Shown: piece after piece, positions 7,880 to 20,717 of the stretch
How the letters are laid out: each line of letters begins with the position of its first letter
Position numbering within the stretch: position 1 is the first letter of the stretch
NCBI RefSeq assembly: GCF_001746365.1
Contig: NZ_MJAJ01000047.1
Span: forward strand, 1 to 64,000
Length of the DNA stretch: 64,000 bases
Reading direction: 5' to 3'
From: Streptomyces sp. LUP30
Lineage (GTDB): Bacteria > Actinomycetota > Actinomycetes > Streptomycetales > Streptomycetaceae
Made by a program: the position numbers and the translations under genes
The notes under the pieces: model-generated
The model's database searches: none
Told to the model about the DNA's origin: nothing
What the model saw: only the letters and a program-made list of their open reading frames with translations

Positions 7880-7935
7880 CGTCGTCTCCTCCCTCTGCGG
7901 GGGTTCGGGGAGTTCATCGGGTCGGGTGCGTGGGA

Positions 7936-9540
7936 TCACGGGGTCTCCTCGCCGGGCGTCGCCCGGTCCACGATCCCGGGAAGGAGCAGGGCCCAGGCGA
8001 GCCCGATCGCGGCCAGGACGGGAACGCCGGCCAGCGCCAGGGGCAGGACCCCGTGCCACCCGAGCTGCAGGACAAGCAGGTTGCCGAGGCAGGCCACGAG
8101 CGCCGCCACGAGGGTCACGGGCCACCAGCGTCCGGGCAGTCGCCGGTCCCGCAGTCCCGCCAGCCGCCGGCACAGCACCACGAAGTACACCGAGCCCGCC
8201 GTGATGCCGACGGCGGTCGCGAGGACGACGCCCATGACACCGAACAGCAGGGTCAGCGGCACGGTCAGCGCCAGGTTGACGGCGGTGGAGAACCAGGAGT
8301 AGCGCGTCTCGTGGCCCGGCAGGCCGATGGCGCGGACGAAACAGGTCCGGATGCCGGTCAGGGCGACCTGAACCGAGTAGCCGGCCAGCAGGACCGCGGC
8401 GACGGCACCGCTGAGGGCGAGGCCCCGGCCGAGCCACACCTGGACGGCGAGTCCGACGGAGGCCGTCGTGATCACGCCGTAGGCGAGGACCGCGGGCAGC
8501 CAGCGGGCCTCCAGCACGGGGAACTCCCGCACCGCCCCCGGCAGTCCGCTGCGGGCGAAGACCCGGGTCATCCGGGTGAGGATGGGCGGAAAGCCGTACA
8601 GCGGAAGGCTGCGCAGGCCGGTGGCGGCCTGATAACCCGCCGCGTAGATGCCCACGTACCGCACGGGCAGCATGGCGGCGATCACCAGGGCGTCGATCTC
8701 ACCGTTGAGGAAGACCGTGAAACCGGACAGCTGCATGCGCAGGGCGTAGGCGCCGAAGTCGCGGAGCTCGGCGCGCGGCGGCAGCAGCGGCCGCCGGACC
8801 CGGATGAAGCGTGCCCCCACCAGGAGACCGGCGACGGTCACCAGGAGGTATCTGCCGAGGGTCAGCAGCGCCAGCAGCGGCAGGTCCCCTCCCTCCCTGA
8901 CCAGGACGACCACGCTCACGGCGTACGCCACGCTCGCCCCGACGCTGACCGCGGCCAGCGGGCGGAACCTCGCGTTGGCCTGGAGGAGGGCGATCGCCGA
9001 GTTCGAGGCAAGCGCCAGCGTGAGCAACGGACCGAGGAGCACCAGGAGTTGCTCCGCCTCGCCCTTGAGGTGGTCCGGGACGTCCACCGCGGCGGTGATC
9101 ACGGGCGCGAGCAGCAGGCTCAGACCCGTGACGATCAGACCGAGGAGGAGGAAGGCGGCCAGCGAGCCTGTCACCAGCCGTCCCGTGCTCTCCTTGTCGC
9201 CGTGAGCGCCGTGGAAGGCGTGGAAGCGCGCGAGCGACGCGCCGATGCCGCCGTCGAGCACGGTGAGCGTGGCGAGGAAGACCAGGATCAGCGACCAGAC
9301 GCCGAACCGGTCCAGGCCCAGCCGGTGGATCAGGTACGGGGTGAGGCACAGGTTGGCGACCAGCGGGGCGGCCTGGGCGAGGCCGCTGTAGCCCATGCCC
9401 GAGGAAAGACCCCGCGGCCGCCCGCCCGGCGCCCCCGGTTCCGCGCCGTCCACCGGTGTGCCGTCCGTCCCCTTCTCGTCCCCGGTCGACCGCACGGCGG
9501 GACCTGCCGGAACGCCGCCTGTCTGCTGCCGGGGACGCAT
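7936..9540 (-). CDS. Polysaccharide flippase (Wzx-like, MOP superfamily)
   Basis: 534-residue protein with a 40-residue hydrophilic N-terminus and about 14 hydrophobic segments, beginning GYSGLAQAAPLVANLCLTPYLIHRLG, the usual first helix pair of oligosaccharide flippases. It should turn lipid-linked repeat units across the membrane for the Wzy-like polymerase. It lies nine bases downstream of the LCP gene in the same unit. The start at 9540 has AAGG eight bases upstream; internal ATGs later in the hydrophilic region are alternatives. Confidence 0.86.
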   Translation of the reverse strand: MRPRQQTGGVPAGPAVRSTGDEKGTDGTPVDGAEPGAPGGRPRGLSSGMGYSGLAQAAPLVANLCLTPYLIHRLGLDRFGVWSLILVFLATLTVLDGGIGASLARFHAFHGAHGDKESTGRLVTGSLAAFLLLGLIVTGLSLLLAPVITAAVDVPDHLKGEAEQLLVLLGPLLTLALASNSAIALLQANARFRPLAAVSVGASVAYAVSVVVLVREGGDLPLLALLTLGRYLLVTVAGLLVGARFIRVRRPLLPPRAELRDFGAYALRMQLSGFTVFLNGEIDALVIAAMLPVRYVGIYAAGYQAATGLRSLPLYGFPPILTRMTRVFARSGLPGAVREFPVLEARWLPAVLAYGVITTASVGLAVQVWLGRGLALSGAVAAVLLAGYSVQVALTGIRTCFVRAIGLPGHETRYSWFSTAVNLALTVPLTLLFGVMGVVLATAVGITAGSVYFVVLCRRLAGLRDRRLPGRWWPVTLVAALVACLGNLLVLQLGWHGVLPLALAGVPVLAAIGLAWALLLPGIVDRATPGEETP

Positions 9541-9549
9541 GACCTTGCC

Positions 9550-10599
9550 TCACGGCCCGGTGGCGGGCGTGTGTCCGGTCTCGACCTCGTGCCACAGCGA
9601 CCGCAGCTTCTCCTTGTCGAGGAGCAGGGCGTACTGGCGTCGGATCATCTCGGAGCGGACGATCGGCGCCGTGGAGAAGCGCGCGTCCGAGGCGCTCAGG
9701 TGGCGCAGGCCGAGAACGAGGTTGCGCAGATCGCCGTTGGTCATGCCGCTGTCGACGCTCACGGTGCGGGTGATCGCGTCGAGGGTCCGGCCGGTCGCGA
9801 ACGGGTCGGTGAGGCGGACCCCGCCGCGCACCTGCGCGACCAGGCTGCGCAGGAACTGCTGCTGGCGCTTGATGCGGTCCAGTTCGCCGCCCGGCAGACC
9901 ATGGCGCTGTCGGACGTACGCCAGTGCCTCGTCGCCGTTCATCGTCTGCTTCCCGGCGGTGAAGGCCCGGTGCTGCTCGGGGTCGTAGGCGTTCGCGGGG
10001 ACCGTCACGGGGACACCGCCGACCGCGTCGGTCAGGGACTTGAAGCCGTGCCAGTCGACGACGCCGAAATGGTCGATCCGGGTCCTGGTGAGCTGTTCCA
10101 CGGTCTTGATGAGAAGGGGAGGTCCGCCCCAGGAGAACGCGGCGTTGACCTTCGCGGAGCCGTGGCCCGGGATCGGCACCCAGCTGTCCCTCGGTATGGA
10201 CAGGGTGTAGGCGGTGCGTTCGCCCGGACTCAGGTGGACGAGCATCAGGGTGTCGCTGCGCTGCGCTCCCGGCTTCCACAGGTCCGCCGTCGCGTCGCTC
10301 CCGGTCGTCGGGCGCTTGGAGCGGCTGTCGACACCGGCCAGCAGGAAGGTCGTTCCGTTGTCGTGCCCCTCGGTCTTCTGCGGGCGCCGGTCCTGCGGGA
10401 ACGCGTGGGGGATCCGGGTCACCTGGTCGCCGTAGTGGTTCGTGCCCCACCAGACTCCGCCGGCCAGGAGCCCCAGCAGGGCCAGCAGGGCGACGAGGCC
10501 GCCGATCAGCACGCCGCGCACGACGCGGCGGCGCTTCCGGCCGTTGGAGCCTGGCTCGGGCCTCGGCGGCCACGTGGTCCATTCGCGAGGGGCGGACAT
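9550..10599 (-). CDS. LytR-CpsA-Psr (LCP) family cell-wall polymer ligase
   Basis: 349-residue membrane-anchored enzyme: short cytoplasmic N-terminus, one membrane helix at about 31-52, then an extracytoplasmic LCP domain containing FLLAGVDSR, QRSDTLMLVHL, SIPRDSWVPIPGHG and the DGDEALAYVRQRHG/LDRIKRQQQFL block, all core LCP motifs with the conserved Arg and Asp residues. LCP enzymes move a lipid-linked glycopolymer to peptidoglycan or protein. Its presence suggests that this polysaccharide becomes attached to the cell wall rather than simply released. The ATG overlaps the upstream stop as ATGA. Confidence 0.9.
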   Translation of the reverse strand: MSAPREWTTWPPRPEPGSNGRKRRRVVRGVLIGGLVALLALLGLLAGGVWWGTNHYGDQVTRIPHAFPQDRRPQKTEGHDNGTTFLLAGVDSRSKRPTTGSDATADLWKPGAQRSDTLMLVHLSPGERTAYTLSIPRDSWVPIPGHGSAKVNAAFSWGGPPLLIKTVEQLTRTRIDHFGVVDWHGFKSLTDAVGGVPVTVPANAYDPEQHRAFTAGKQTMNGDEALAYVRQRHGLPGGELDRIKRQQQFLRSLVAQVRGGVRLTDPFATGRTLDAITRTVSVDSGMTNGDLRNLVLGLRHLSASDARFSTAPIVRSEMIRRQYALLLDKEKLRSLWHEVETGHTPATGP

Positions 10600-13451
10600 C
10601 AGAAGTCGTCCGGGTAGGGATCGGCCATGACGGCGGGTGTCTGCCGGCCGGACGCGGATTCCGGGAAGCCGGGGAAGAGCCCGGCCAGCACCCGGCGCAC
10701 CGCGCCGGTGTCGTTGCGCTCGGCGGCGGCGTTCAGGGCGGCCAGCACGGCGGCGAGCGCGGAGGGGTTCTCGCGCGGGGCGGAGGAGGTCGCGGCGAGG
10801 ATCCGCGGATGGGCGGTGTGCGTCTGGTCCTCGTGGGAGGAGAACAGCGTCTCGTTGAGCTTCTCGCCCGGCCGCAGGCCGGTGAAGCGGATGTCCACGT
10901 CCGGCACGTTCAGGGAGCGGGCGAACCTTCGGACCAGGTCGACGATGCGGACGGGACCGCTCATGTCGAGCACGTACACCTCGCCGCCCTCGGCCATGCG
11001 CGCCGCCTCCAGGACGAGTCCGACCGCCTCCTCGACCGTCATGAAGAACCGGGTGACGTCCGGGTGGGTGACGGTCACCGGGGATCCCGATCCCAGCTGC
11101 TCGGCGACGACGGACAGCAGGGACCCCCGGCTGCCCAGCACGTTGCCGAAGCGGACTGCGGTGAAGACGCTTCCCTCGGGGGCGCTGCCCTGGGCGTCGC
11201 TCACGATGAGTTCGGCCAGTCGCTTCGTCGCGCCGAGCACGGACACCGGGTCGGCCGCCTTGTCCGTGGAGATCAGGACGAAGCGTTCGGTACCGGCGGC
11301 GGCCGCGGCCCGGACCAGGTTCTCGGTGCCCCGCACGTTCGACTTCACGCCCTCGCAGGGGTGCCGTTCGAGGAGAGGGAGGTGTTTGTGCGCCGCCGCG
11401 TGGAAGACGGTCTCGGGCCGCAGCTCGCGGAAGATCTGGTCGATCCTGGGACGGTCCCGGATGTCGGAGATGACGATGTCGTCGCTGAGCAGCGCGTCGC
11501 CGTACAGCTCCAGCTGGAGCCGGTGGAGGTTGGACTCGTCGTGATCGAGGAGGAAGAGCCGGCTGGGGCCGAAGGCGCGCACCTGGTGGCACAGCTCGCT
11601 GCCGATGGAGCCGCCGGCGCCGGTCACCAGGACCCGTCTGCCGACGATCGTGGACCGGGCTTCGGGGCTCACCACGTGCATCTCGGTGCGGCCGATCAGC
11701 TGGTGCACGTCCAGGGCCCGCATGTCGCTGCCGACCACGTCCCGGCGCAGGGCGGCGATGAAGGAGGGAAGGTAGCGGACGCTGGCGCCCGTGGCCTCGG
11801 CCTCGCCCACGACGTGGCGGAAACGTTCGCGTCCCAGACCCGGGATGGCCAGGACCACCGCTTCGATGCCGTGGGCGAGCACGGTCTCCCGCACTCCGTC
11901 CACCTCGCCGAGGACAGGCAGTTCACCGATGACGGCGGCTCGGCGCTTGTCGGGGTCGTCGTCGAGGAAGCCGACGGGGTCGAGCCCGAACTGGGGGGTC
12001 CGCGCCAGATCGCGGGCGAGCGCCCGCCCCGCCTCGCCCGCGCCGAGCACGAGCGTGCGCAGACCGGTGGGCCGGGGCGGTTCCGGGGGCGCGGCGGCAG
12101 GGGCGGGCGGGGGCGGGGGCGGGGTGTGCGGCTGGGCGAGGCGGGCCAGTTCGTCGCAGACCCGGTCGACCGCGCTGTCGGCGAGCTCGAGGTGCAGGGG
12201 CAGGGAGAGGAGCTGGGGGAAGAGCGCGTCGGCTCCCGGCAGGCCGCCGGGCGGGATCGTCGCTGTGGCGCGGAAGTAGGGCATGTGATGCAGCGGGATG
12301 AAGTGGACCGAGGTGCCGATGCCGCGTTCGGCGAGCAGTTCGCTCAGCTCGTCCCGGCTCCTGCCGTACTCCGGCGTCACTCGCACGGCGTAGAGGTGGC
12401 AGGCGTGCCGGCCGGGGGTGGGGACATCCAGGGGCTCGATGCCGGGCAAGCTCTCCAGCGCCGCCGTGTAGCGCCGGACGAGTTCGTGGCGGCGCCGCTG
12501 CCAGTCGTCGAGGTGGCGGAGCTGGGCGCGCCCGACGGCGGCCTGGACGTCCGTCATGTTGGCCTTCAGGCCCGGGCCCTCGACGGTGTACCGCCAGCTG
12601 CCGCCCGGCATGTCGCGTCGCCAGGCGTCGGCGGACATCCCGTGGAGCCGGGCCCGGCGGATCCCTTCGGCGAGCTCCGGGTCGTCCGTGGTGACCATGC
12701 CGCCGTCACCGATGGGCAGGTTCTTGGTGGCGTAGAAGCTGAAGCACGTGGCGCGTGACAGGCTGCCCACGGGCCGGTCGCCCACCGCGGTGCCCAGCGC
12801 GTGCGCGGCGTCCTCGATCACCCGCGTGAGCGGAAGCTGCGCGGCCTCGGCAAGGGCTGTCACCGGGGCGGGGGCTCCCGCGTAGTGCAGCACCATCATC
12901 GCGTGGGGACATCCGCAGGCTCTGGCCGCGCGGGAGACGGTGGCCTGGTCGGCCATGGCGGTGCGCGGGTCGACGTCGACCAGGACGGGCTGGAGTCCCG
13001 CGTGCAGGACGGCCTGGGCGGCGCCGCAGAACGTCACGGCCGGCAGCAGGACCTTGCCGCCGGGCGGCAGGCCGAGGCCGCGCAGCGCCAGCTCCAGGGC
13101 GGCCGTGCACGAGCTGACGGCGACTGCGCGTTCGGCCTCGACGTAGGCCGCGAACTCCTTCTCGAAAAGCCCGGTCTCGTTTCCGGTGGTCACCCAGCCC
13201 GAGGCGAAGACACGCTGGACAGCGCTGCGTGCCTCCCGGCTGATATGCGTGACGGCGAACGGAACGTCCGGTTCTCCCGCGTGTTCGCGCGGACCGGAGG
13301 CGGGGTGCGGTGCTTCGTGCTCGCGCGGTCCGGCGCCGGGGCGCGGCTCTGGGGAATCGCCCGGACCGGCGCGGTGGTGGGAGCTCCCGTTCCGGGCGTC
13401 CCGGGCCGTTCCCCCCGGCGGCTTGCGGGGCCGCGTCCGTCCGACTGTCAT
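10599..13451 (-). CDS. DegT aminotransferase fused to a CapD/PglF-type UDP-sugar 4,6-dehydratase
   Basis: 950-residue two-enzyme fusion. After 60 low-complexity residues comes a DegT/DnrJ/EryC1 PLP-dependent aminotransferase (about 65-440, PLP lysine K243 in SFYATKNLPIGDGG). A proline-rich linker (443-462) leads to a CapD/FlaA1-type module: a CoA-like Rossmann domain (465-600) and a 4,6-dehydratase domain with GAGGSIGSE (611-619), STDKAADP (728-735) and ATKR (741-744). The membrane helices that precede this module in WbpM or PglF are absent. The pair would convert UDP-GlcNAc to a 4-amino-4,6-dideoxy sugar, a bacillosamine-type precursor. I chose ATG 13451, preceded by GGGAGCAGGAG; an ATG at 13505 touches the palindromic element. 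Confidence 0.88.
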   Translation of the reverse strand: MTVGRTRPRKPPGGTARDARNGSSHHRAGPGDSPEPRPGAGPREHEAPHPASGPREHAGEPDVPFAVTHISREARSAVQRVFASGWVTTGNETGLFEKEFAAYVEAERAVAVSSCTAALELALRGLGLPPGGKVLLPAVTFCGAAQAVLHAGLQPVLVDVDPRTAMADQATVSRAARACGCPHAMMVLHYAGAPAPVTALAEAAQLPLTRVIEDAAHALGTAVGDRPVGSLSRATCFSFYATKNLPIGDGGMVTTDDPELAEGIRRARLHGMSADAWRRDMPGGSWRYTVEGPGLKANMTDVQAAVGRAQLRHLDDWQRRRHELVRRYTAALESLPGIEPLDVPTPGRHACHLYAVRVTPEYGRSRDELSELLAERGIGTSVHFIPLHHMPYFRATATIPPGGLPGADALFPQLLSLPLHLELADSAVDRVCDELARLAQPHTPPPPPPAPAAAPPEPPRPTGLRTLVLGAGEAGRALARDLARTPQFGLDPVGFLDDDPDKRRAAVIGELPVLGEVDGVRETVLAHGIEAVVLAIPGLGRERFRHVVGEAEATGASVRYLPSFIAALRRDVVGSDMRALDVHQLIGRTEMHVVSPEARSTIVGRRVLVTGAGGSIGSELCHQVRAFGPSRLFLLDHDESNLHRLQLELYGDALLSDDIVISDIRDRPRIDQIFRELRPETVFHAAAHKHLPLLERHPCEGVKSNVRGTENLVRAAAAAGTERFVLISTDKAADPVSVLGATKRLAELIVSDAQGSAPEGSVFTAVRFGNVLGSRGSLLSVVAEQLGSGSPVTVTHPDVTRFFMTVEEAVGLVLEAARMAEGGEVYVLDMSGPVRIVDLVRRFARSLNVPDVDIRFTGLRPGEKLNETLFSSHEDQTHTAHPRILAATSSAPRENPSALAAVLAALNAAAERNDTGAVRRVLAGLFPGFPESASGRQTPAVMADPYPDDF

Positions 13452-13511
13452 CTCCTGCTCCCCGGTGCCGACTCCGCTGGGGAAGAATGGCGACGTCACA
13501 TTCATCCGAAT

Positions 13512-13537
13512 GGCGTAAGTTTACGCCGTATAGATAC
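13512..13537. promoter_or_regulatory. Palindromic element, copy 3, with a 16-base perfect dyad
   Basis: GGCGTAAGTTTACGCC at 13512-13527 is a perfect inverted repeat (seven-base arms around GT). It overlaps TTTACGCCGTATA at 13520-13532, the same core as copies 1 and 2 with two changes at the end. It lies between the aminotransferase/dehydratase gene (minus) and the TetR gene (plus), so TetR protein from 13610 is one candidate binder. Confidence 0.6.
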
Positions 13538-13609
13538 ACCTTGCCCCCGTAGCTGCATAGAGTCAACACGAGCAGGATCTCGGGCGGGCGGGCCGTACGG
13601 AGGACAGGC

Positions 13610-14359
13610 ATGGCCAAGGAACGTACGCGGGGCAAGGACGGCGAGGCCCCCGCACCGGCGCGGCGCGCGAGCGATCGGGGCCACTACGGGCGGCTGAGCC
13701 GCGAACTGGTGCTCGCCACCGCCCTGGACCTGGTGGACGAGGAGGGCCTCTCCGCACTGAGCATGCGCCGGCTCGGCGCCCGGCTCGGCGTCGAGGCCAT
13801 GGCGCTGTACCGCTACGCGGAGGGCAAGGACGCCCTGCTGGACGGACTGGTCGAGGCTCTCTACCTCGAACTGGTCGAGCGGCTGTCCGCCGGTTCCCCG
13901 CCGGAGGGCGCCACCCCGCCGGACCCGGCCGCGTGGCGCGGCGAACTCCACCGGATCGCCCGGGCGACCTACGAGGTCTGCCTGGCCCATCCCCAGGCCG
14001 TGCCGCTGCTCACCACGCGCATGCTCGCCGTTCCGCTCGCCAGGAGGCCCCTCGCCGTGCTGAAGGAACACGAGCGGGTGCTCGCGCTGCTCCGGGACGC
14101 GGGGCTCGGCCCGGACCGCACCGCGGCGGTCTTCCGCGCCTTCACCGGCTGGGTTCTCGGCTACGTCGCCGTGGAGCTGCGCGCCATGGTGGACAACCCC
14201 GAGGAGGAGGACCCCGCCTTCCGTCTGGGACTGCACCGGATGCCGCCCCAGGAGCTGCCCCGGCTCCGCGAGAGCGCCGCGACGCTCGCCGAGCGGGGTG
14301 GCCCGGAGGGCCTGGAGGCCGGCCTGGACGCCCTGCTGGACCGCTTCGCGACGGACTGA
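13610..14359 (+). CDS. TetR-family regulator (TetR_C-like C-terminal domain)
   Basis: 249-residue DNA-binding repressor. The helix-turn-helix lies at about 25-75 (ALDLVDEEGLSALSMRRLGARLGVEAMALYRYAEGKDALLDGL) after a basic 20-residue N-terminus. The C-terminal ligand domain resembles that of the tetracycline-repressor type (TRMLAVPLARRPLAV, FRAFTGWVLGYVAVEL). GGAGG seven bases upstream supports the ATG. It is divergent from the exopolysaccharide operon and 230 bases upstream of the GGDEF-EAL fusion in the same direction, so it could control either or both. Ligand unknown. Confidence 0.88.
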   Translation: MAKERTRGKDGEAPAPARRASDRGHYGRLSRELVLATALDLVDEEGLSALSMRRLGARLGVEAMALYRYAEGKDALLDGLVEALYLELVERLSAGSPPEGATPPDPAAWRGELHRIARATYEVCLAHPQAVPLLTTRMLAVPLARRPLAVLKEHERVLALLRDAGLGPDRTAAVFRAFTGWVLGYVAVELRAMVDNPEEEDPAFRLGLHRMPPQELPRLRESAATLAERGGPEGLEAGLDALLDRFATD

Positions 14360-14590
14360 ACCCGGCACGGAGAGACCGGGGCGCCGGGACAGGGGACGCC
14401 GGGACGCCATGACGCCGGGAGGCGAGACGCCGGGACGAGGAATGCCGGAGACCGCCTCGCCCGAACGGCTGAAGATGCACCGGTCCACCCGCCGTGCCTA
14501 CGATCAACAAGGCCCCCGGAACGCGCCGGACGGTCCCGTGCCGTCCGACGCGAGGTTCCTGTGCCGTGCGACGTAGGGAGGCGGTTCGGC

Positions 14591-17500
14591 TTGCTGCGGG
14601 CACCACGCCTCACGGACCTCCTGCCACGGCCACGGCGCCTCGGCGTGTACGGCATCCTGGTCGCGGCCGCCACCGTGGTCTACATGGCGGCCCCCCCGAC
14701 CCGGACCCCGCTGTGGGCCGTCATCGGGCTCGGCGGATTCGCGGCCATGGTCACGGGGATCGTCGTCAACCGCCCGCCCCACCGCTGGCCGTGGCTGCTG
14801 CTGGCCGCGGGGCTGCTGGCGTTCGCGGCGGGCGACACGTCGTACAACGTGATGGAGTCGTACTTCCAGATCAACAACCCGTTCCCGTCCGCCGCCGACG
14901 CCTGCTATCTCGCCTGCTATCCGATGTTCGCCGCCGGCCTCTACGGCCTGGTGCACTACCGCTGGCCGGGCCACGACCTGCCGGGTCTGCTCGACGCCCT
15001 GATCTTCGTGCTGGGTCTGGCTCTGCCCGTCTGGGTCTTCCTGGTGCAGCCGCTCACCCATGAGCCGGGTATGACGTGGCAGCAGCGGGCCATCAGCATC
15101 GCCTACCCGCTCGGCGACGTGCTCGTCCTCGCGATGCTGACCCGCCTCCTGGTGGCGAGCCCCGGCTCCGGCCGTATCCCCGCCCTCCGGCTCCTGGTGC
15201 TGGGAACGGCGGCGCTGCTCACCTTCGACATCGCGTACGGGATCCTCCAGCTCAACGACCTGTGGCAGACCGGGACCCTGCTCGACTGCGGCTGGATCGT
15301 CTTCTACACGGCCTGGGGGCTCGCGGGCCTGCATCCCTCGATGGTGGAACTGGCCCGGCCCGTGGTGCGAGGGGAGTCCCTGCGGCCCACGCGCCGCCGG
15401 CTGATCGCACTCAGCGCGGCCACCCTGGTGGCGCCCGGCATCCTGCTGTACGAGGGGCAGAGCAAGGACACCCAGGATGCCGCCGTGATCGCGGTCTTCT
15501 CCGCGGCCCTCTTCCTGCTGGTGCTCCTGCGGCTCTCCGGGATGGTGGTGGCCCACCGCAGCGCCATGGCCCGCGAACTGGCGCTGGGCACCGCGGCCAC
15601 GTCCCTGGTCGCGGCGGCCAGACCACAGGACGTGGAGCGGGCGTGCGACACCACGGTGAGCACGCTGTTCGGGCCCAAGGTCGCGCACCGGTGTCTCGTC
15701 CTGCCGGCCGAGTACGCGAACGGGCTCGAGACCCGCAGCTCGCATCTGGTGCCCACGACGGAGCTGGGGACGGACATCGCGGGCCGGCTCGGCGGGCTGC
15801 CCAGCACGCTGGTGTGCCCCATGATCCCGCCCGACCAGCCGACCGAGCGGCTGCCGGGCGTGCTGGTGGCGGCGGGTCCCGAGCAGCAGCTCCGGGAGAT
15901 CCAGAGCTCGCTGGAGATCCTCGCCTCGCACGCCGGTCTGGCCGTGGCCCGCATCGCGCTGCGCGAGGAGATCATCCGCAAGGAGAGCGAGGCCTACTTC
16001 CGCACACTGGTGCGCAACGCCTCGGACGTCATCCTCATCGTCGAGGACGACAACACCGTCCGGTACGCGAGCCCGTCCGCTCGTGCCGTCTTCGGCCAGA
16101 TGGAACTCGCCGGGACGCCACTGCCCGAACTGGTGGACTCCAGCGACCGGACACGGGTCGTCAAGGGACTCGCCGCCCTGCGCAAGGGCGGGTCGCCCGA
16201 GACCCACGACCACTGGTGGGTGCTGCGCGACGGGAACCGCATCGAGGTCGAGGTGCGCTGCAGCGACCTGCGCGAGGACCCCACGGTGTCCGGGCTGGTC
16301 ATCACCCTGCGGGACGTGACCGAGCAACGCAGGCTCGAACACGAGCTGACCGAGCGGGCGTTCCACGATCCGCTGACCGGTCTGCCCAACCGGACCCTGC
16401 TCCTGGAACGGATCGAGCGCGCCCTGCTGCGCAGCCGCCGCGGGTCGACGCTCACCTGTCTGCTCTTCATCGACCTCGACGACTTCAAGATGGTCAACGA
16501 CACGATGGGACACTCCACCGGCGACCATCTGCTGAGCGCGGTCGCCGAACGGCTCTCGGGAGCGCTGCGCCGCACGGACACCGCGGCCCGTCTCGGGGGC
16601 GACGAGTTCGCGGTGCTGATGGAGGACGCCAAGAAACCGCTGGACGCCGAACTCCTCGCGGCACAGGTGATCCAGGCGCTCAGCCGGTCCTTCAGCCTGC
16701 GCGAGGGCTCGGTGAGCGTGTCCGCGAGCGTCGGTGTGGCCACCGCCCGGGACAGCACGGACGCCGAGGAACTGCTCGGCCACGCCGACCTGGCCCTCTA
16801 CGCGGCGAAGGCGGCCGGCAAGCGGCAGTGGCGCAGATTCCTCCCCCGGCTGCGGGTGCGGATGGTGGAACGGCACGATCTCCAGGCCCGCCTCGACGGC
16901 GCGGTCGCGCGGTCCGAATTCACCGTGCGCTACCAGCCCGTCGTCGACATCGACGCGGGCGAGGTCGTCGGCTTCGAGGCCCTGGCCCGCTGGCAGTATC
17001 CGCACCACGATCCGGTCCCGCCGGACCAGTTCATCGCCCTCGCCGAGGAGACGGGGCACATCACGCCGCTGGGCGCTTGGGTCCTGGCGACCGCGGCCAC
17101 GGACATCTCCCGGCTCCAGCGGTCGGCCGACGGCGCCGAGCCGCCGTACGTCAGCGTGAACGTCTCCCCCCGCCAGTTCCGCGACAGCGGATTCCTGGAC
17201 AAGGTGCGCAGGGCGCTCCAGACCCCCGGACTCGCCCCGGGGTCGCTCCAGCTGGAGCTCACCGAGACCGTGCTCATGCGCCGGGACGCGCAGGTCCAGG
17301 CGGTGCTGTACTCGCTCAAGGACCTCGGCGTGCACATCGCGGTCGACGACTTCGGCAGCGGCTACTCCTCGCTGCGCTACCTGCGGGACTTCCCCGTCGA
17401 CGTCCTGAAGATCGACAAGACGTTCATCGACGACATCGCGCTGGACACCCGGCAGGTGGCGCTCGTCGAGGGAATCGTCAGCCTCGCCGACACCCTGGGC

Positions 17501-19087
17501 ATCCAGGTGATCGCCGAGGGGATCGAGGACCAGGTGCAGAGGGAGCTCCTGGCCGGTATGGGTTGCCGGTTCGGACAGGGTTTCCTCTTCGCCCGGCCGA
17601 TGACGGTGCAGCAGAGCGAGTTCCTGCTGCGGCAGCGCGACGGGGTTCGCACCCCGGTCGGGTCCGCCGCCGCGACGGCGGAAACGAGGTACGGAATGGA
17701 ACCATCGCAGCCGGCTTCGGCCGACCCGCACAAGAACCCGTCCGCTCCGCCCGACGGCACGTCGCCCGGCGGCACGCACGGCGACCCGCCGGGCGAGAGC
17801 ACGCACGGTGACGACGCCCACGGCGACGGGGGCGGTGACGGCGCCCGGCGCTCAAGACGCTGGCGCGACCTGGAGCATCTGCGGCAGACCAGCCCCATGA
17901 GCGACGCCGTTCTCGACGAGGTGCGAGGCCGGCACATCCGCAGCGGCGACCACTGGATGATCGACTTCGCCTCCTGCAACTACCTCGGCTTCGACTGCGA
18001 TCCGGAGATCATCCAGTCCATCGAACCGGCCGTACGCCGCTGGGGCACCCACCCCAGCTGGTCCCGGCTGATCGGCAGTCCTCGTCTGTATCCCGACATC
18101 GAGGAGCGCCTCGCCGACCTGCTCGGCGCGCCCGACGCGCTGCTGCTCCCCACGGCGACCCTGATCCACGCCTCGGTGATCCCCGTCCTGGCGGGCCAGG
18201 GCCATGTCTTCGTCGAGGCCACGGCACACCGGACCGTGTTCGACGGATGCGTGGGGGCCCGTGGTCAGGGCGCGACGCTGCGCCGTTTCCACGCCGCACG
18301 CCTCGACGAACTGGCGGCCATGCTCGACGCGGCGCCGGCGGATCTGCCCCGGCTCGTCTGCCTGGACGGCGTGAACAGCATGAGCGGGAACATCCCCGAC
18401 CTGCCGAGGCTGGCCGAGGTCTGCAGGCCGCGCAACGCCCTGATGTACATCGACGACGCGCACGGATTCGGCGTCATCGGGGAGCGCAATCCGCACGAGT
18501 CGTGTCCGTACGGGGACCGGGGCAACAGCGTCGTACGGCACACGGGAGAGTCGTACGAGGGGATCGTGCTCGTCGGCGGGTTCTCGAAGGCGTACTCGTC
18601 GCTGCTGGCCTTCCTCGCGCTGCCCACCTCGCTCAAGGACCGCCTCAAGACCGCGGCGGCGCCCTACCTCTACTCGGGCCCGTCGCCCACCGCCTCCCTC
18701 GCCACCGCGCTGGCCGGCCTCGACGTCAACGACCGCCGCGGGGACGACATCCGGGCCGATCTGTACCGCAAGACGGTGCGCGTCCTCGACCACCTCGATG
18801 AGCTCGGGGCGGGCACGCTCAACACGGACCGGCTGCCGATCATCGAGATCCCGCTGGCGGACGCCGACGACCTGGACGCGGTCGGCACGTTCCTGTGGGA
18901 CAACGGCATCTACGTGACCCTGGCGGCCTATCCCCTCGTACCGCGCGACCGCGTCGGTTTCCGGGTCCAGCTGACCGCGCTCAACTCCGACGAGGACGTG
19001 GACCGGCTCAACGACACGCTCACCCGGCTCACCGAGCGCTATCGGCTGCGGCCGAGGGACGGAGTCCGCGATGGCGGTCCTGAATGA
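14591..19087 (+). CDS. GGDEF-EAL c-di-GMP protein fused to an alpha-oxoamine synthase
   Basis: A single uninterrupted frame of 1498 codons. Residues 1-310 hold about nine hydrophobic segments; a GAF-like stretch and a PAS domain (about 465-585) follow. The GGDEF domain (about 589-745) has an intact GGDEF (669-673) and I-site RRTD (660-663). The EAL domain (about 755-1010) keeps EAL (796-798), NVSPRQF, ELTET, DDFGSG (from 919), KIDKTF and AEGIED, so both synthesis and breakdown of c-di-GMP look possible. After a Gly/His/Asp-rich linker (about 1035-1085) comes a PLP-dependent alpha-oxoamine synthase with PLP lysine K1333 in GGFSKAYSS and YIDDAHGFG. TTG 14591 follows GGGAGG; GTG 14561 is an alternative. 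Met1036 (17696) has GAGG upstream and could start a separate 463-residue synthase. Confidence 0.85.
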   Translation: MLRAPRLTDLLPRPRRLGVYGILVAAATVVYMAAPPTRTPLWAVIGLGGFAAMVTGIVVNRPPHRWPWLLLAAGLLAFAAGDTSYNVMESYFQINNPFPSAADACYLACYPMFAAGLYGLVHYRWPGHDLPGLLDALIFVLGLALPVWVFLVQPLTHEPGMTWQQRAISIAYPLGDVLVLAMLTRLLVASPGSGRIPALRLLVLGTAALLTFDIAYGILQLNDLWQTGTLLDCGWIVFYTAWGLAGLHPSMVELARPVVRGESLRPTRRRLIALSAATLVAPGILLYEGQSKDTQDAAVIAVFSAALFLLVLLRLSGMVVAHRSAMARELALGTAATSLVAAARPQDVERACDTTVSTLFGPKVAHRCLVLPAEYANGLETRSSHLVPTTELGTDIAGRLGGLPSTLVCPMIPPDQPTERLPGVLVAAGPEQQLREIQSSLEILASHAGLAVARIALREEIIRKESEAYFRTLVRNASDVILIVEDDNTVRYASPSARAVFGQMELAGTPLPELVDSSDRTRVVKGLAALRKGGSPETHDHWWVLRDGNRIEVEVRCSDLREDPTVSGLVITLRDVTEQRRLEHELTERAFHDPLTGLPNRTLLLERIERALLRSRRGSTLTCLLFIDLDDFKMVNDTMGHSTGDHLLSAVAERLSGALRRTDTAARLGGDEFAVLMEDAKKPLDAELLAAQVIQALSRSFSLREGSVSVSASVGVATARDSTDAEELLGHADLALYAAKAAGKRQWRRFLPRLRVRMVERHDLQARLDGAVARSEFTVRYQPVVDIDAGEVVGFEALARWQYPHHDPVPPDQFIALAEETGHITPLGAWVLATAATDISRLQRSADGAEPPYVSVNVSPRQFRDSGFLDKVRRALQTPGLAPGSLQLELTETVLMRRDAQVQAVLYSLKDLGVHIAVDDFGSGYSSLRYLRDFPVDVLKIDKTFIDDIALDTRQVALVEGIVSLADTLGIQVIAEGIEDQVQRELLAGMGCRFGQGFLFARPMTVQQSEFLLRQRDGVRTPVGSAAATAETRYGMEPSQPASADPHKNPSAPPDGTSPGGTHGDPPGESTHGDDAHGDGGGDGARRSRRWRDLEHLRQTSPMSDAVLDEVRGRHIRSGDHWMIDFASCNYLGFDCDPEIIQSIEPAVRRWGTHPSWSRLIGSPRLYPDIEERLADLLGAPDALLLPTATLIHASVIPVLAGQGHVFVEATAHRTVFDGCVGARGQGATLRRFHAARLDELAAMLDAAPADLPRLVCLDGVNSMSGNIPDLPRLAEVCRPRNALMYIDDAHGFGVIGERNPHESCPYGDRGNSVVRHTGESYEGIVLVGGFSKAYSSLLAFLALPTSLKDRLKTAAAPYLYSGPSPTASLATALAGLDVNDRRGDDIRADLYRKTVRVLDHLDELGAGTLNTDRLPIIEIPLADADDLDAVGTFLWDNGIYVTLAAYPLVPRDRVGFRVQLTALNSDEDVDRLNDTLTRLTERYRLRPRDGVRDGGPE

Positions 19088-19814
19088 CGACGTGAACTGG
19101 GACCGATGGCCGGTCGAGGACTACCTGGCGGAGAACTACCGCGAGTTGCACCCCTCGGACGCGGCGGTCATCGCCCACCACAGCGTGTTCTACCGGGAGT
19201 TCCCGCCGGACGGCGTGGCCCGGTCGGTGGAGATCGGAGCCGGCCCCAACCTGTATCCGCTGATCCTCGCCTCCGCGGCGAGCCGCCGTATCGACGCGGT
19301 GGAGGCGGGCGCCTCCAACGCCGCCTATCTGGAAGGGCAGTTGAACGGGACGCCGGACCGGAGCTGGCTGCCCTTCCACGCCCTGTGCCGCAGCCTCAAT
19401 CCGGACGTCCCCGGGACCCTGGAGGAGGCGCTGTCCTCGGTGCGTCTGGTGCACGGCGACCTGAGGTCCGTCGAGCCGGGGGGTTACCACCTCGCCTCCA
19501 TGCATTTCGTGGCCGAGGGAGCCACCGAGGACTTCGAGGAGTTCAAGGAGTTCTGCCGCCGGTTCGTCCGGTGCGTCGTCCCGGGCGGGCACCTGGTCGC
19601 CGCGTTCATGGAGAACATGCCGACCTACCGGATCGGCGCCGACTCCCGCTGGCCCGGATGCCCGGTGGACACGGACGTCATCACCGAGGTGTTCACCCCG
19701 CTGACCGACCGGCTCACGGTCGGCCGCATTCCGTCGGATCCGACCCTGCCGGACTACGGGGACTCCGGGATGGTCCTGCTCACCGGGGTCGCGGCGGCCG
19801 CTCCCCCGGATTGA
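19071..19814 (+). CDS. SAM-dependent methyltransferase, NNMT/PNMT/SCO2525-like
   Basis: 247-residue small-molecule methyltransferase. The N-terminal part (DWRWP-like, EDYLAENYRELHPSDAAVIAHH) and the SAM-binding loop VEIGAGPNLYPLIL match the NNMT/PNMT/TEMT-type family known in Streptomyces as SCO2525-like. The ATG at 19071 overlaps the end of the upstream fusion gene by 17 bases, and GGAG lies seven bases before it, so the two are coupled. The enzyme probably N-methylates the aminoketone made by the synthase domain, but this is inferred from position only. Confidence 0.8.
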   Translation: MAVLNDDVNWDRWPVEDYLAENYRELHPSDAAVIAHHSVFYREFPPDGVARSVEIGAGPNLYPLILASAASRRIDAVEAGASNAAYLEGQLNGTPDRSWLPFHALCRSLNPDVPGTLEEALSSVRLVHGDLRSVEPGGYHLASMHFVAEGATEDFEEFKEFCRRFVRCVVPGGHLVAAFMENMPTYRIGADSRWPGCPVDTDVITEVFTPLTDRLTVGRIPSDPTLPDYGDSGMVLLTGVAAAAPPD

Positions 19815-19942
19815 GCAAGGGACCGGTGGCCGCCTGCCGCCGGGGACCGGCCGCCGCCCACCCGGCTGTCCTGGGCCGGACGGGCCTGCTCGGTGACCGT
19901 CGACGGCGCGCCGTCGGCGCGTTGTTGTGGCGCCCCACGGGG

Positions 19943-19948
19943 TAGCGT
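19943..19948 (+). promoter_or_regulatory. -10 hexamer TAGCGT of a leaderless gene
   Basis: TAGCGT ends seven bases before the ATG at 19956 and there is no ribosome site, the arrangement expected of a leaderless transcript. TTGTTG at 19922-19927 is a weak -35 candidate with short spacing. Confidence 0.5.
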
Positions 19949-19955
19949 CCTCGAC

Positions 19956-20717
19956 ATGGACATTCGCACCACGGTTGAGCGCGCTCAACGACTCAAGCAG
20001 CTGCACGCCGAGTACAAGCCGCTCGTACTGCCGACCGTCTGGGACGCCTGGTCCGCGCGGACGGCGGCCGGCGCCGGATTCCCCGCGCTCACGATCGGCA
20101 GTCATCCGCTCGCCGACTCCCGCGGAGCCGACGACCACGAGGGGCAGACCTTCGAGGAGGTGCTCGCCGCCGTCAGGCCCATCATCGCGGCGGTCGACGT
20201 TCCCGTCTCCGTGGACCTGGAGGCCGGCTACGGACAAGAACCCTCGGACCTCATCGCCGGACTCACCGAAGTCGGCGGCGTCGGTCTCAACATCGAGGAC
20301 ACCGTCCACTCGGACGGCGGACGCGTGCGCACCACCCAGGAACACGCGAACTACGTCGCCGGCCTGCGCGCGGCCGCTGACGACGCCGGGATCCCGGTCT
20401 GGATCAACGGGCGCACCGACCTCTTCCTCCACGCCGAGGATGCCTCCGCCGTCCTCGGCGAGGCGATCGAACGACTGCATGCCCTGGAGCAGGCCGGCGC
20501 CGACAGTGTCTATCCGGTGGGCATCCAGGACAACGACGACCTGCTGACCGCGGTGACCGGCGCCGTCGGCATCCCGGTGAACTCCACGGCCCATCCCGTC
20601 AAGCACGATCTTGAACGCTTCCGCCGCCTCGGCGTCGGCCGGATCACCTACGGCCCGCTGCTGCAGTTCGCCCTGACGGACGCGATGAAGGACATGCTCG
20701 GGCCGTGGGCGCCCTGA
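19956..20717 (+). CDS. Isocitrate lyase/PEP mutase family protein
   Basis: 253-residue TIM-barrel enzyme of the PEP mutase/isocitrate lyase superfamily. It shows LPTVWDAWSARTAAGAGFPAL, the SVDLEAGYG metal-binding motif, GVGLNIEDTVHSDGG and INGRTDLF. The cysteine loop of true isocitrate and methylisocitrate lyases (KKCGH) is not present, so the reaction is open; oxaloacetate decarboxylase or carbon-carbon lyase activity is possible. It is a stand-alone gene with a leaderless-type promoter, convergent with the PucR-like regulator. The start is set by homology and promoter spacing. Confidence 0.85.
   Translation: MDIRTTVERAQRLKQLHAEYKPLVLPTVWDAWSARTAAGAGFPALTIGSHPLADSRGADDHEGQTFEEVLAAVRPIIAAVDVPVSVDLEAGYGQEPSDLIAGLTEVGGVGLNIEDTVHSDGGRVRTTQEHANYVAGLRAAADDAGIPVWINGRTDLFLHAEDASAVLGEAIERLHALEQAGADSVYPVGIQDNDDLLTAVTGAVGIPVNSTAHPVKHDLERFRRLGVGRITYGPLLQFALTDAMKDMLGPWAP

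Follow-up and report, generated by a model that had tools for sequence, protein, structure and literature searches.

In a 64,000-nucleotide stretch of Streptomyces sp. LUP30 (contig NZ_MJAJ01000047.1, positions 1 to 64,000; hereafter the window), one reading frame ending at position 19087 joins an N-terminal multi-helix membrane domain (MEM) and PAS, GGDEF, and EAL domains to a C-terminal alpha-oxoamine synthase (AOS). Across the loci compared here, the conserved partner of the AOS is the membrane domain and not cyclic di-GMP (c-di-GMP) chemistry as such: synthase and membrane sensor form the constant pair, and the output module is changeable. This pairing is found in several Actinobacteriota families outside the order of Streptomyces and has apparently not been described before. 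We regard it as moderately probable that the fused protein is a signalling unit with synthase and receptor in one protein, in which the AOS product is sensed by MEM and answered by c-di-GMP; its genes, their pairing, and their fusion are observed, and its product, ligand, and direction of control we infer. More tentatively, and with a little less than even confidence, we propose that it is an autoinducer synthase with its own receptor in one chain, turning an aminoketone into a c-di-GMP response, and that it derives from an Actinobacteriota signalling family whose common receptor domain feeds either histidine kinases or c-di-GMP enzymes.

Reading frame, domains, and occurrence of the fusion

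The frame lies on the + strand and runs without an internal stop from TTG 14591, or GTG 14561 in the same frame, to TGA 19085-19087. The likeliest start (14576..14593, +) is the TTG, which follows GGGAGG (14576-14581) at 9 nt spacing, and amino acids (aa) are counted from it. MEM (14621..15595), with about 9-10 helices in the model, is followed on the same strand by a PAS domain identified with Pfam (aa 469-576; 15995..16318), a GGDEF domain (aa 590-745; 16358..16825; Pfam E 3e-45), an EAL domain (aa 767-1003; 16889..17599; Pfam E 3e-72), a linker that is variable in length and sequence among relatives (17621..17845), and a complete AOS domain (17846..19087), with Aminotran_1_2 at aa 1124-1475 (E 2e-20) and K1333 (codon 18587-18589) as the lysine for pyridoxal 5'-phosphate (PLP). 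Both the GGDEF motif (16595) and the RxxD I-site (16568) are intact. An earlier note on this DNA, made from the letters alone, had described one such stop-free frame with an overlapping methyltransferase gene at its 3' end, and frame reading and Pfam bear out both: the NNMT/PNMT/TEMT-like methyltransferase gene (19071..19814, +) starts with ATG 19071 and overlaps the end of the AOS by 17 nt. A chance open frame was rejected since the AOS is 54-62% identical to that of the window in 18 of 20 loci outside the order (41-42% in the two most distant), and GGDEF and EAL, where matched in those loci, are 38-53% and 43-48% identical. A scan of 13400-20100 yielded no sigma-70 promoter and one terminator-like site, at chance level.

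The AOS model (predicted local distance difference test 91.9) superimposes on solved AOSs with Z scores of up to 47, and the match to serine palmitoyltransferase (SPT) 3a2b, at Z 47.4 over 382 residues, places the AOS fold of fold-type I across the whole domain. SPT, BioF, and KBL are matched at Z 45-47 (BioF/KBL-type 46.8) and CqsA at Z 40. Among 53 aligned AOSs, the catalytic His, Asp, and His are invariant and the PLP lysine is present in 52. The domain is a member of the alpha-oxoamine synthase superfamily that falls below every curated family cut-off listed: 173.7 of 426 bits for BioF, and for SPT, KBL, and ALAS 141 (of 640 and 500), 138 (of 460), and 106 (of 339) bits. A role in biotin synthesis was rejected on the BioF score and on the presence of two further AOS-like genes in the window genome.

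AOS orthologs (E<=1e-60) occur in 69 of 392 Streptomyces genomes, and all 69 loci were read. Together with the named loci L033, L034, and L035 they form a first set of 72, with 58 fused, 10 split, and 4 unclassified, the latter owing to frameshifts (L059), stops inside the AOS (L149), a fragment (L150), or a contig edge (L111). L059 (genome G009) and L149 (G248) appear as broken orthologs. A second set took 15 of 35 further Streptomyces matches, one of which repeats L035 (L223) and the other 14 of which are fused; L031, L032, and L036 were not counted, as they lie on the same contigs as L090, L089, and L137. In total, 72 of the 86 Streptomyces loci are fused, 10 split, and 4 not classifiable, and the fused ones include the named strains S. 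populi, S. aureus, S. hilarionis, NBC_00568, and C10-9-1. The earlier note had suggested looking for the same domain order in other Streptomyces and had allowed for a fusion confined to this strain by error; the order recurs in most of these loci, and an assembly or frame error or an accident of the window strain is thereby rejected.

All 13 loci of the sister family (f3) are split, the stop of one gene overlapping the start of the next (two of them, L056 and L057, carry identical AOSs), and L217, from a second Streptomycetaceae genus, is split as well. The join changed state repeatedly: by parsimony, a quick tree in which many forks are weak requires 6 changes of the fused and split labels, or 9 fusions if splits cannot re-arise. 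Repeated fusion is favoured because all 10 split Streptomyces loci have an ATG at codon -30 to -32 together with a site resembling a Shine-Dalgarno sequence (SD-like).

GGDEF, I-site, and the checked EAL residues are intact in all 70 matched Streptomyces loci, bar one D to A change, and in all 13 sister-family loci. In the 15 matched loci outside the order, GGDEY occurs in 2 and ETL in 1, and Gln replaces the first Glu of the ELTE motif in the EAL domain of 13.

Pairing of the synthase with the membrane domain

The phylum-wide search gave 26 AOS matches; without those in G000 and G119, 24 lie outside the order, and all 24 were examined. In 23 of them a MEM homolog is no more than 5 kb away from the AOS (20 and 2 loci in two sets, and G769 from the match positions of the AOS and MEM searches). 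The output, assigned in 21 of the 23 (all but L169 and G769), is GGDEF in 17 loci (L157, L160-L168, L170-L174, L176, and L219; contig ends truncate L163 and L168, and L174 is frame-broken) and, by Pfam, a histidine kinase in 7 (L158, L159, L160, L162, L164, L175, and L218). Both forms are present in L160, L162, and L164, and in L160 the AOS, a MEM-PAS-histidine kinase, a major facilitator superfamily (MFS) protein, and a MEM-PAS-GGDEF-EAL protein stand in a row on one strand. The layouts include AOS first and MEM first, same-strand, divergent, and convergent arrangements, and the pairing outlives rearrangement, since it is kept across all of these.

In 396 genomes, MEM (E<=1e-40) was detected in 26 of 26 genomes with an AOS (E<=1e-50) versus 36 of 370 without (Fisher 6e-24); both searches apparently used the same genome draw, and detection is biased in that the MEM profile contains rows from these loci. 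In 21 of 22 genomes searched, some of which contributed to the profile, the top MEM match is the copy near the AOS, the exception being G009 with its broken gene. As a control, none of 12 AOS paralogs (24-33% identity, among the matches listed, from 6 genomes) comes within 20 kb of any MEM; the smallest distance is 26 kb. No Pfam family scored over its cut-off for MEM, so that its assignment to a known Pfam sensor was rejected; MASE5 appeared weakly in 7 of 57 members. Among the invariant residues of MEM are D93, D125, and D166, in the numbering of the domain used here. Its role as a receptor we infer from context and topology.

Exporters of one family (MFS_3), which score 644-757 bits against a profile made from ten members, adjoin the AOS in 10 of the 24 loci outside the order. 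An exporter of the same family stands between AOS and methyltransferase in the Streptomyces loci L125, L126, and L235 and in L217. In L217 (G606), a single 690-residue open frame (oriented 10648-12717) spans exporter and methyltransferase, possibly a further fusion within this set of genes; receptor and AOS are split there. The methyltransferase of the window reaches 27.8 bits against a gathering score of 25 for Pfam NNMT/PNMT/TEMT, as a whole-protein score with no single stretch, and 124.9 of 240 bits for the SCO2525 family, below that cut-off; its homolog in L217 stays under the Pfam gathering score at 19.2 bits.

Identity with CdgF, proposed signalling, and rival readings

The portions of PMC6205966 available to us describe CdgF of S. 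venezuelae (vnz02140/sven0451) as a low-abundance and predicted bifunctional protein with ten transmembrane helices (10TM-PAS-PAC-GGDEF-EAL), whose C-terminally FLAG-tagged form was found in no fraction but that of the membrane. The window protein fits this architecture, with intact motifs and 9-10 helices in the model. In genome G015, the positions of eight GGDEF genes follow the eight published locus numbers with r 0.9998, their order and spacing fit cdgF, cdgA, cdgD, cdgB, cdgE, rmdB, cdgC, and rmdA (8/8), and the gene at the place of cdgF is the fusion (L043). The window protein is thus most likely CdgF, an identity resting on gene order in G015. If G015 is S. venezuelae or a close relative, the tag sat behind the AOS, and the membrane-only finding speaks for one chain.

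The words 'aminotransferase', 'synthase', and 'transferase' are absent from the main text of PMC6205966 as available to us. Our search, which did not extend to subscription journals and supplements, found no paper on a GGDEF/EAL or diguanylate protein with an AOS, BioF-type, or aminotransferase domain, and among papers on Streptomyces with oxoamine synthase or CqsA autoinducer synthase, judged by title, none concerned such a protein. The earlier note knew of no described fusion of this kind; this stands for the AOS half, which the searched text does not mention, but not for the protein, most likely CdgF and as such already tagged and deleted. The AOS is apparently an unrecognised half of a known c-di-GMP protein; it represents no new enzyme class, and the gene has probably been described already.

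In the proposed mechanism, the C-terminal AOS would condense an acyl thioester with an amino acid, releasing CO2 and an alpha-aminoketone, which the neighbouring N-methyltransferase-like enzyme would probably modify and which an MFS pump would export in some lineages. The N-terminal MEM would sense the product and, via PAS, set the balance between making (GGDEF) and breaking (EAL) c-di-GMP; in some relatives the same sensor would drive a histidine kinase. The fusion would hold synthase and receptor at the membrane in a 1:1 ratio. The anatomy is that of an autoinducer synthase and its receptor, because synthase and membrane sensor travel together while the output changes, as with CqsA/CqsS and LqsA/LqsS. 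An exporter is in keeping with release of the product from the cell, and membership of the NNMT/PNMT/TEMT-like family suggests that the methyltransferase modifies an amine.

Several observations weigh against this reading. The AOS does not pass the curated CqsA/LqsA model (54.2 versus 428 bits), and by sequence it resembles BioF, KBL, and SPT (174-115 bits) more closely than it does CqsA/LqsA (54 bits). No methyltransferase stands beside the AOS in any of 37 loci outside Streptomycetaceae, and among the Streptomyces loci it is absent at L121, L122, and L145; an exporter is near the AOS in only 3 of 86 Streptomyces loci. L121 has the sole exception to the PLP lysine (K to R), so that its AOS half is possibly inactive while the fusion is kept. 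L221 (G781), with the least similar AOS, has no MEM near it, the MEM being on another contig. MEM gave no Foldseek match under E 0.001, and its best VIA-align match, to a seven-transmembrane protein at Z 9.7, is a resemblance at the level of a helical bundle, possibly a common helical arrangement, and is not used as evidence. In S. venezuelae, a cdgF deletion had no developmental phenotype in the conditions tried, according to the available parts of PMC6205966. Finally, MEM copies without an adjoining AOS exist, for example in CdgC: a distant version of the domain is present in the genes that occupy the CdgC place (G015:C1:5603613-5604434, E 4e-27; G000:C49:40271-40894, E 7e-24). Receptors often outnumber synthases, and CdgF and CdgC may sense related ligands.

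One rival reading reverses the flow of information: GGDEF-EAL would bind or turn over c-di-GMP and thereby allosterically set the activity of the fused AOS, restricting synthesis of a metabolite or lipid to either high or low c-di-GMP levels. The fusion itself, the conserved I-site, and the overlapping genes of the sister family are consistent with it. However, in L158, L159, L175, and L218 a kinase is the only MEM protein near the AOS in the DNA examined, L160, L162, and L164 also have one, and the EAL-AOS stretch of Streptomyces, sequence-variable and 50 to 164 residues long, would be a poor allosteric coupler. We therefore consider c-di-GMP control of the synthase unlikely, and flow from AOS product through sensor to c-di-GMP likelier, because MEM elsewhere also drives histidine kinases and c-di-GMP is not the constant element. 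Of the link between c-di-GMP and an aminoketone proposed in the earlier note, the fusion proved real and conserved, but the constant partner of the AOS is MEM, which is also carried by histidine kinases.

Sensing of a membrane lipid is an equally unlikely alternative, in which the AOS would make a sphingoid-like lipid and MEM would monitor how much of it the membrane contains, which would serve house-keeping feedback and not cell-to-cell signalling. The AOS fold is closest to SPT and the BioF/KBL-type enzymes, the sensor is membrane-embedded, and a fatty acid desaturase gene is nearby in the window. The MFS exporter that accompanies 10 of the 24 loci outside the order argues against it, as does the lack of a sphingolipid set among the recurrent neighbour clusters that were identified, which are part of all clusters. 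An SDR-like oxidoreductase is among the recurrent neighbours, at 2 outside loci and 1 Streptomyces locus.

The last rival, two proteins from one mRNA, turns on the stretch between EAL and the AOS core, which has 31 different lengths in the 58 fused loci of the first set (50-147 residues) and reaches its Streptomyces maximum of 164 residues in L230 of the second set. The internal start named in the earlier note exists (17686..17698, +): GAGG lies 6 nt upstream of ATG 17696, and 5 of the 6 members of the window clade have it in common, L033 being without it. By a crude list of SD-like tetramers, in-frame starts of this kind occur in 15 of 58 and 6 of 14 fused loci, and 51 of all 72 are without one. 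In these 51 loci it is most likely the fusion protein itself that functions, because there is no SD-like internal start between EAL and the AOS core. That the window strain makes two proteins, with receptor-GGDEF-EAL read through at a low level and the AOS made from ATG 17696, is quite improbable: the conserved GAGG-ATG and the split loci of the sister family and of 10 Streptomyces, each of the latter with its own SD-like site and ATG, speak for it, and L033, the 51 loci, and the membrane-only CdgF tag, the last from another species (PMC6205966, in part), against. The linker of L033 (near 7900-8130) holds tandem copies of a short peptide repeat (FGPQKEPAV-like).

Neighbouring genes and comparison with known systems

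Polysaccharide genes lie upstream of the fusion in the window on the - strand. Among them, a 968-aa frame (10599-13505, -) encodes both a DegT/DnrJ/EryC1 aminotransferase and a CoA_binding_3/Polysacc_synt_2 nucleotide-sugar enzyme and adjoins further polysaccharide genes. Of the 18 Streptomyces loci compared, 8 have nucleotide-sugar epimerase genes (cluster 5) and 4 have UDP-glucose dehydrogenase genes (cluster 10) upstream of the fusion or gene pair, each cluster being identified by Pfam through one member; loci with such genes include L035, L102, L112, L118, L121, L124, and L145. The polysaccharide neighbourhood is therefore partly conserved, and where the earlier note had placed an exopolysaccharide locus the window has polysaccharide genes, of which cluster 5 recurs in only 8 of the 18 loci. 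Directly upstream of the fusion is a gene for a TetR-family regulator (13610-14359, +), whose cluster occurs in 4 of 18 Streptomyces loci, window included.

If the AOS product is the MEM ligand, it would provide CdgF, and perhaps CdgC, with a first candidate input: the latter cyclase, which controls S. venezuelae development and has a distant MEM copy, may then hear a related molecule. AOS-based signalling would be extended to Actinobacteriota, with c-di-GMP as output, through a synthase-receptor fusion. The proposal is directly testable in S. venezuelae, where both tagged strains and a cdgF deletion mutant already exist (PMC6205966, in the parts available).

With RmdB and CdgC of Streptomyces, the window protein shares membrane helices with GGDEF and EAL; in the portions of the published accounts drawn on here, RmdB lacks a PAS and is given 6 or 8 helices, the EAL of CdgC is degenerate, and no AOS is described for either. 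The AOS domain is like BioF, KBL, and SPT in fold and catalytic residues, and unlike them scores below all curated cut-offs listed. Clusters holding the synthase and receptor genes of the CqsA/CqsS and LqsA/LqsS type occur in several bacteria (PMC3376566, in the parts available). As in these systems, the gene of a PLP-dependent synthase with the AOS fold is paired with that of a multi-helix membrane protein, here MEM as the putative receptor. The CqsS receptor drives a histidine kinase, whereas the output in the window is GGDEF-EAL, with MEM-kinases in 7 of 24 outside loci. We know of no other quorum-sensing system with a synthase-receptor fusion. Unlike CqsA/CqsS and LqsA/LqsS, the system described here has an AOS outside the CqsA/LqsA family, carries an MFS exporter and a methyltransferase in part of its loci, belongs to the phylum Actinobacteriota, and in Streptomyces has its synthase and putative receptor fused.

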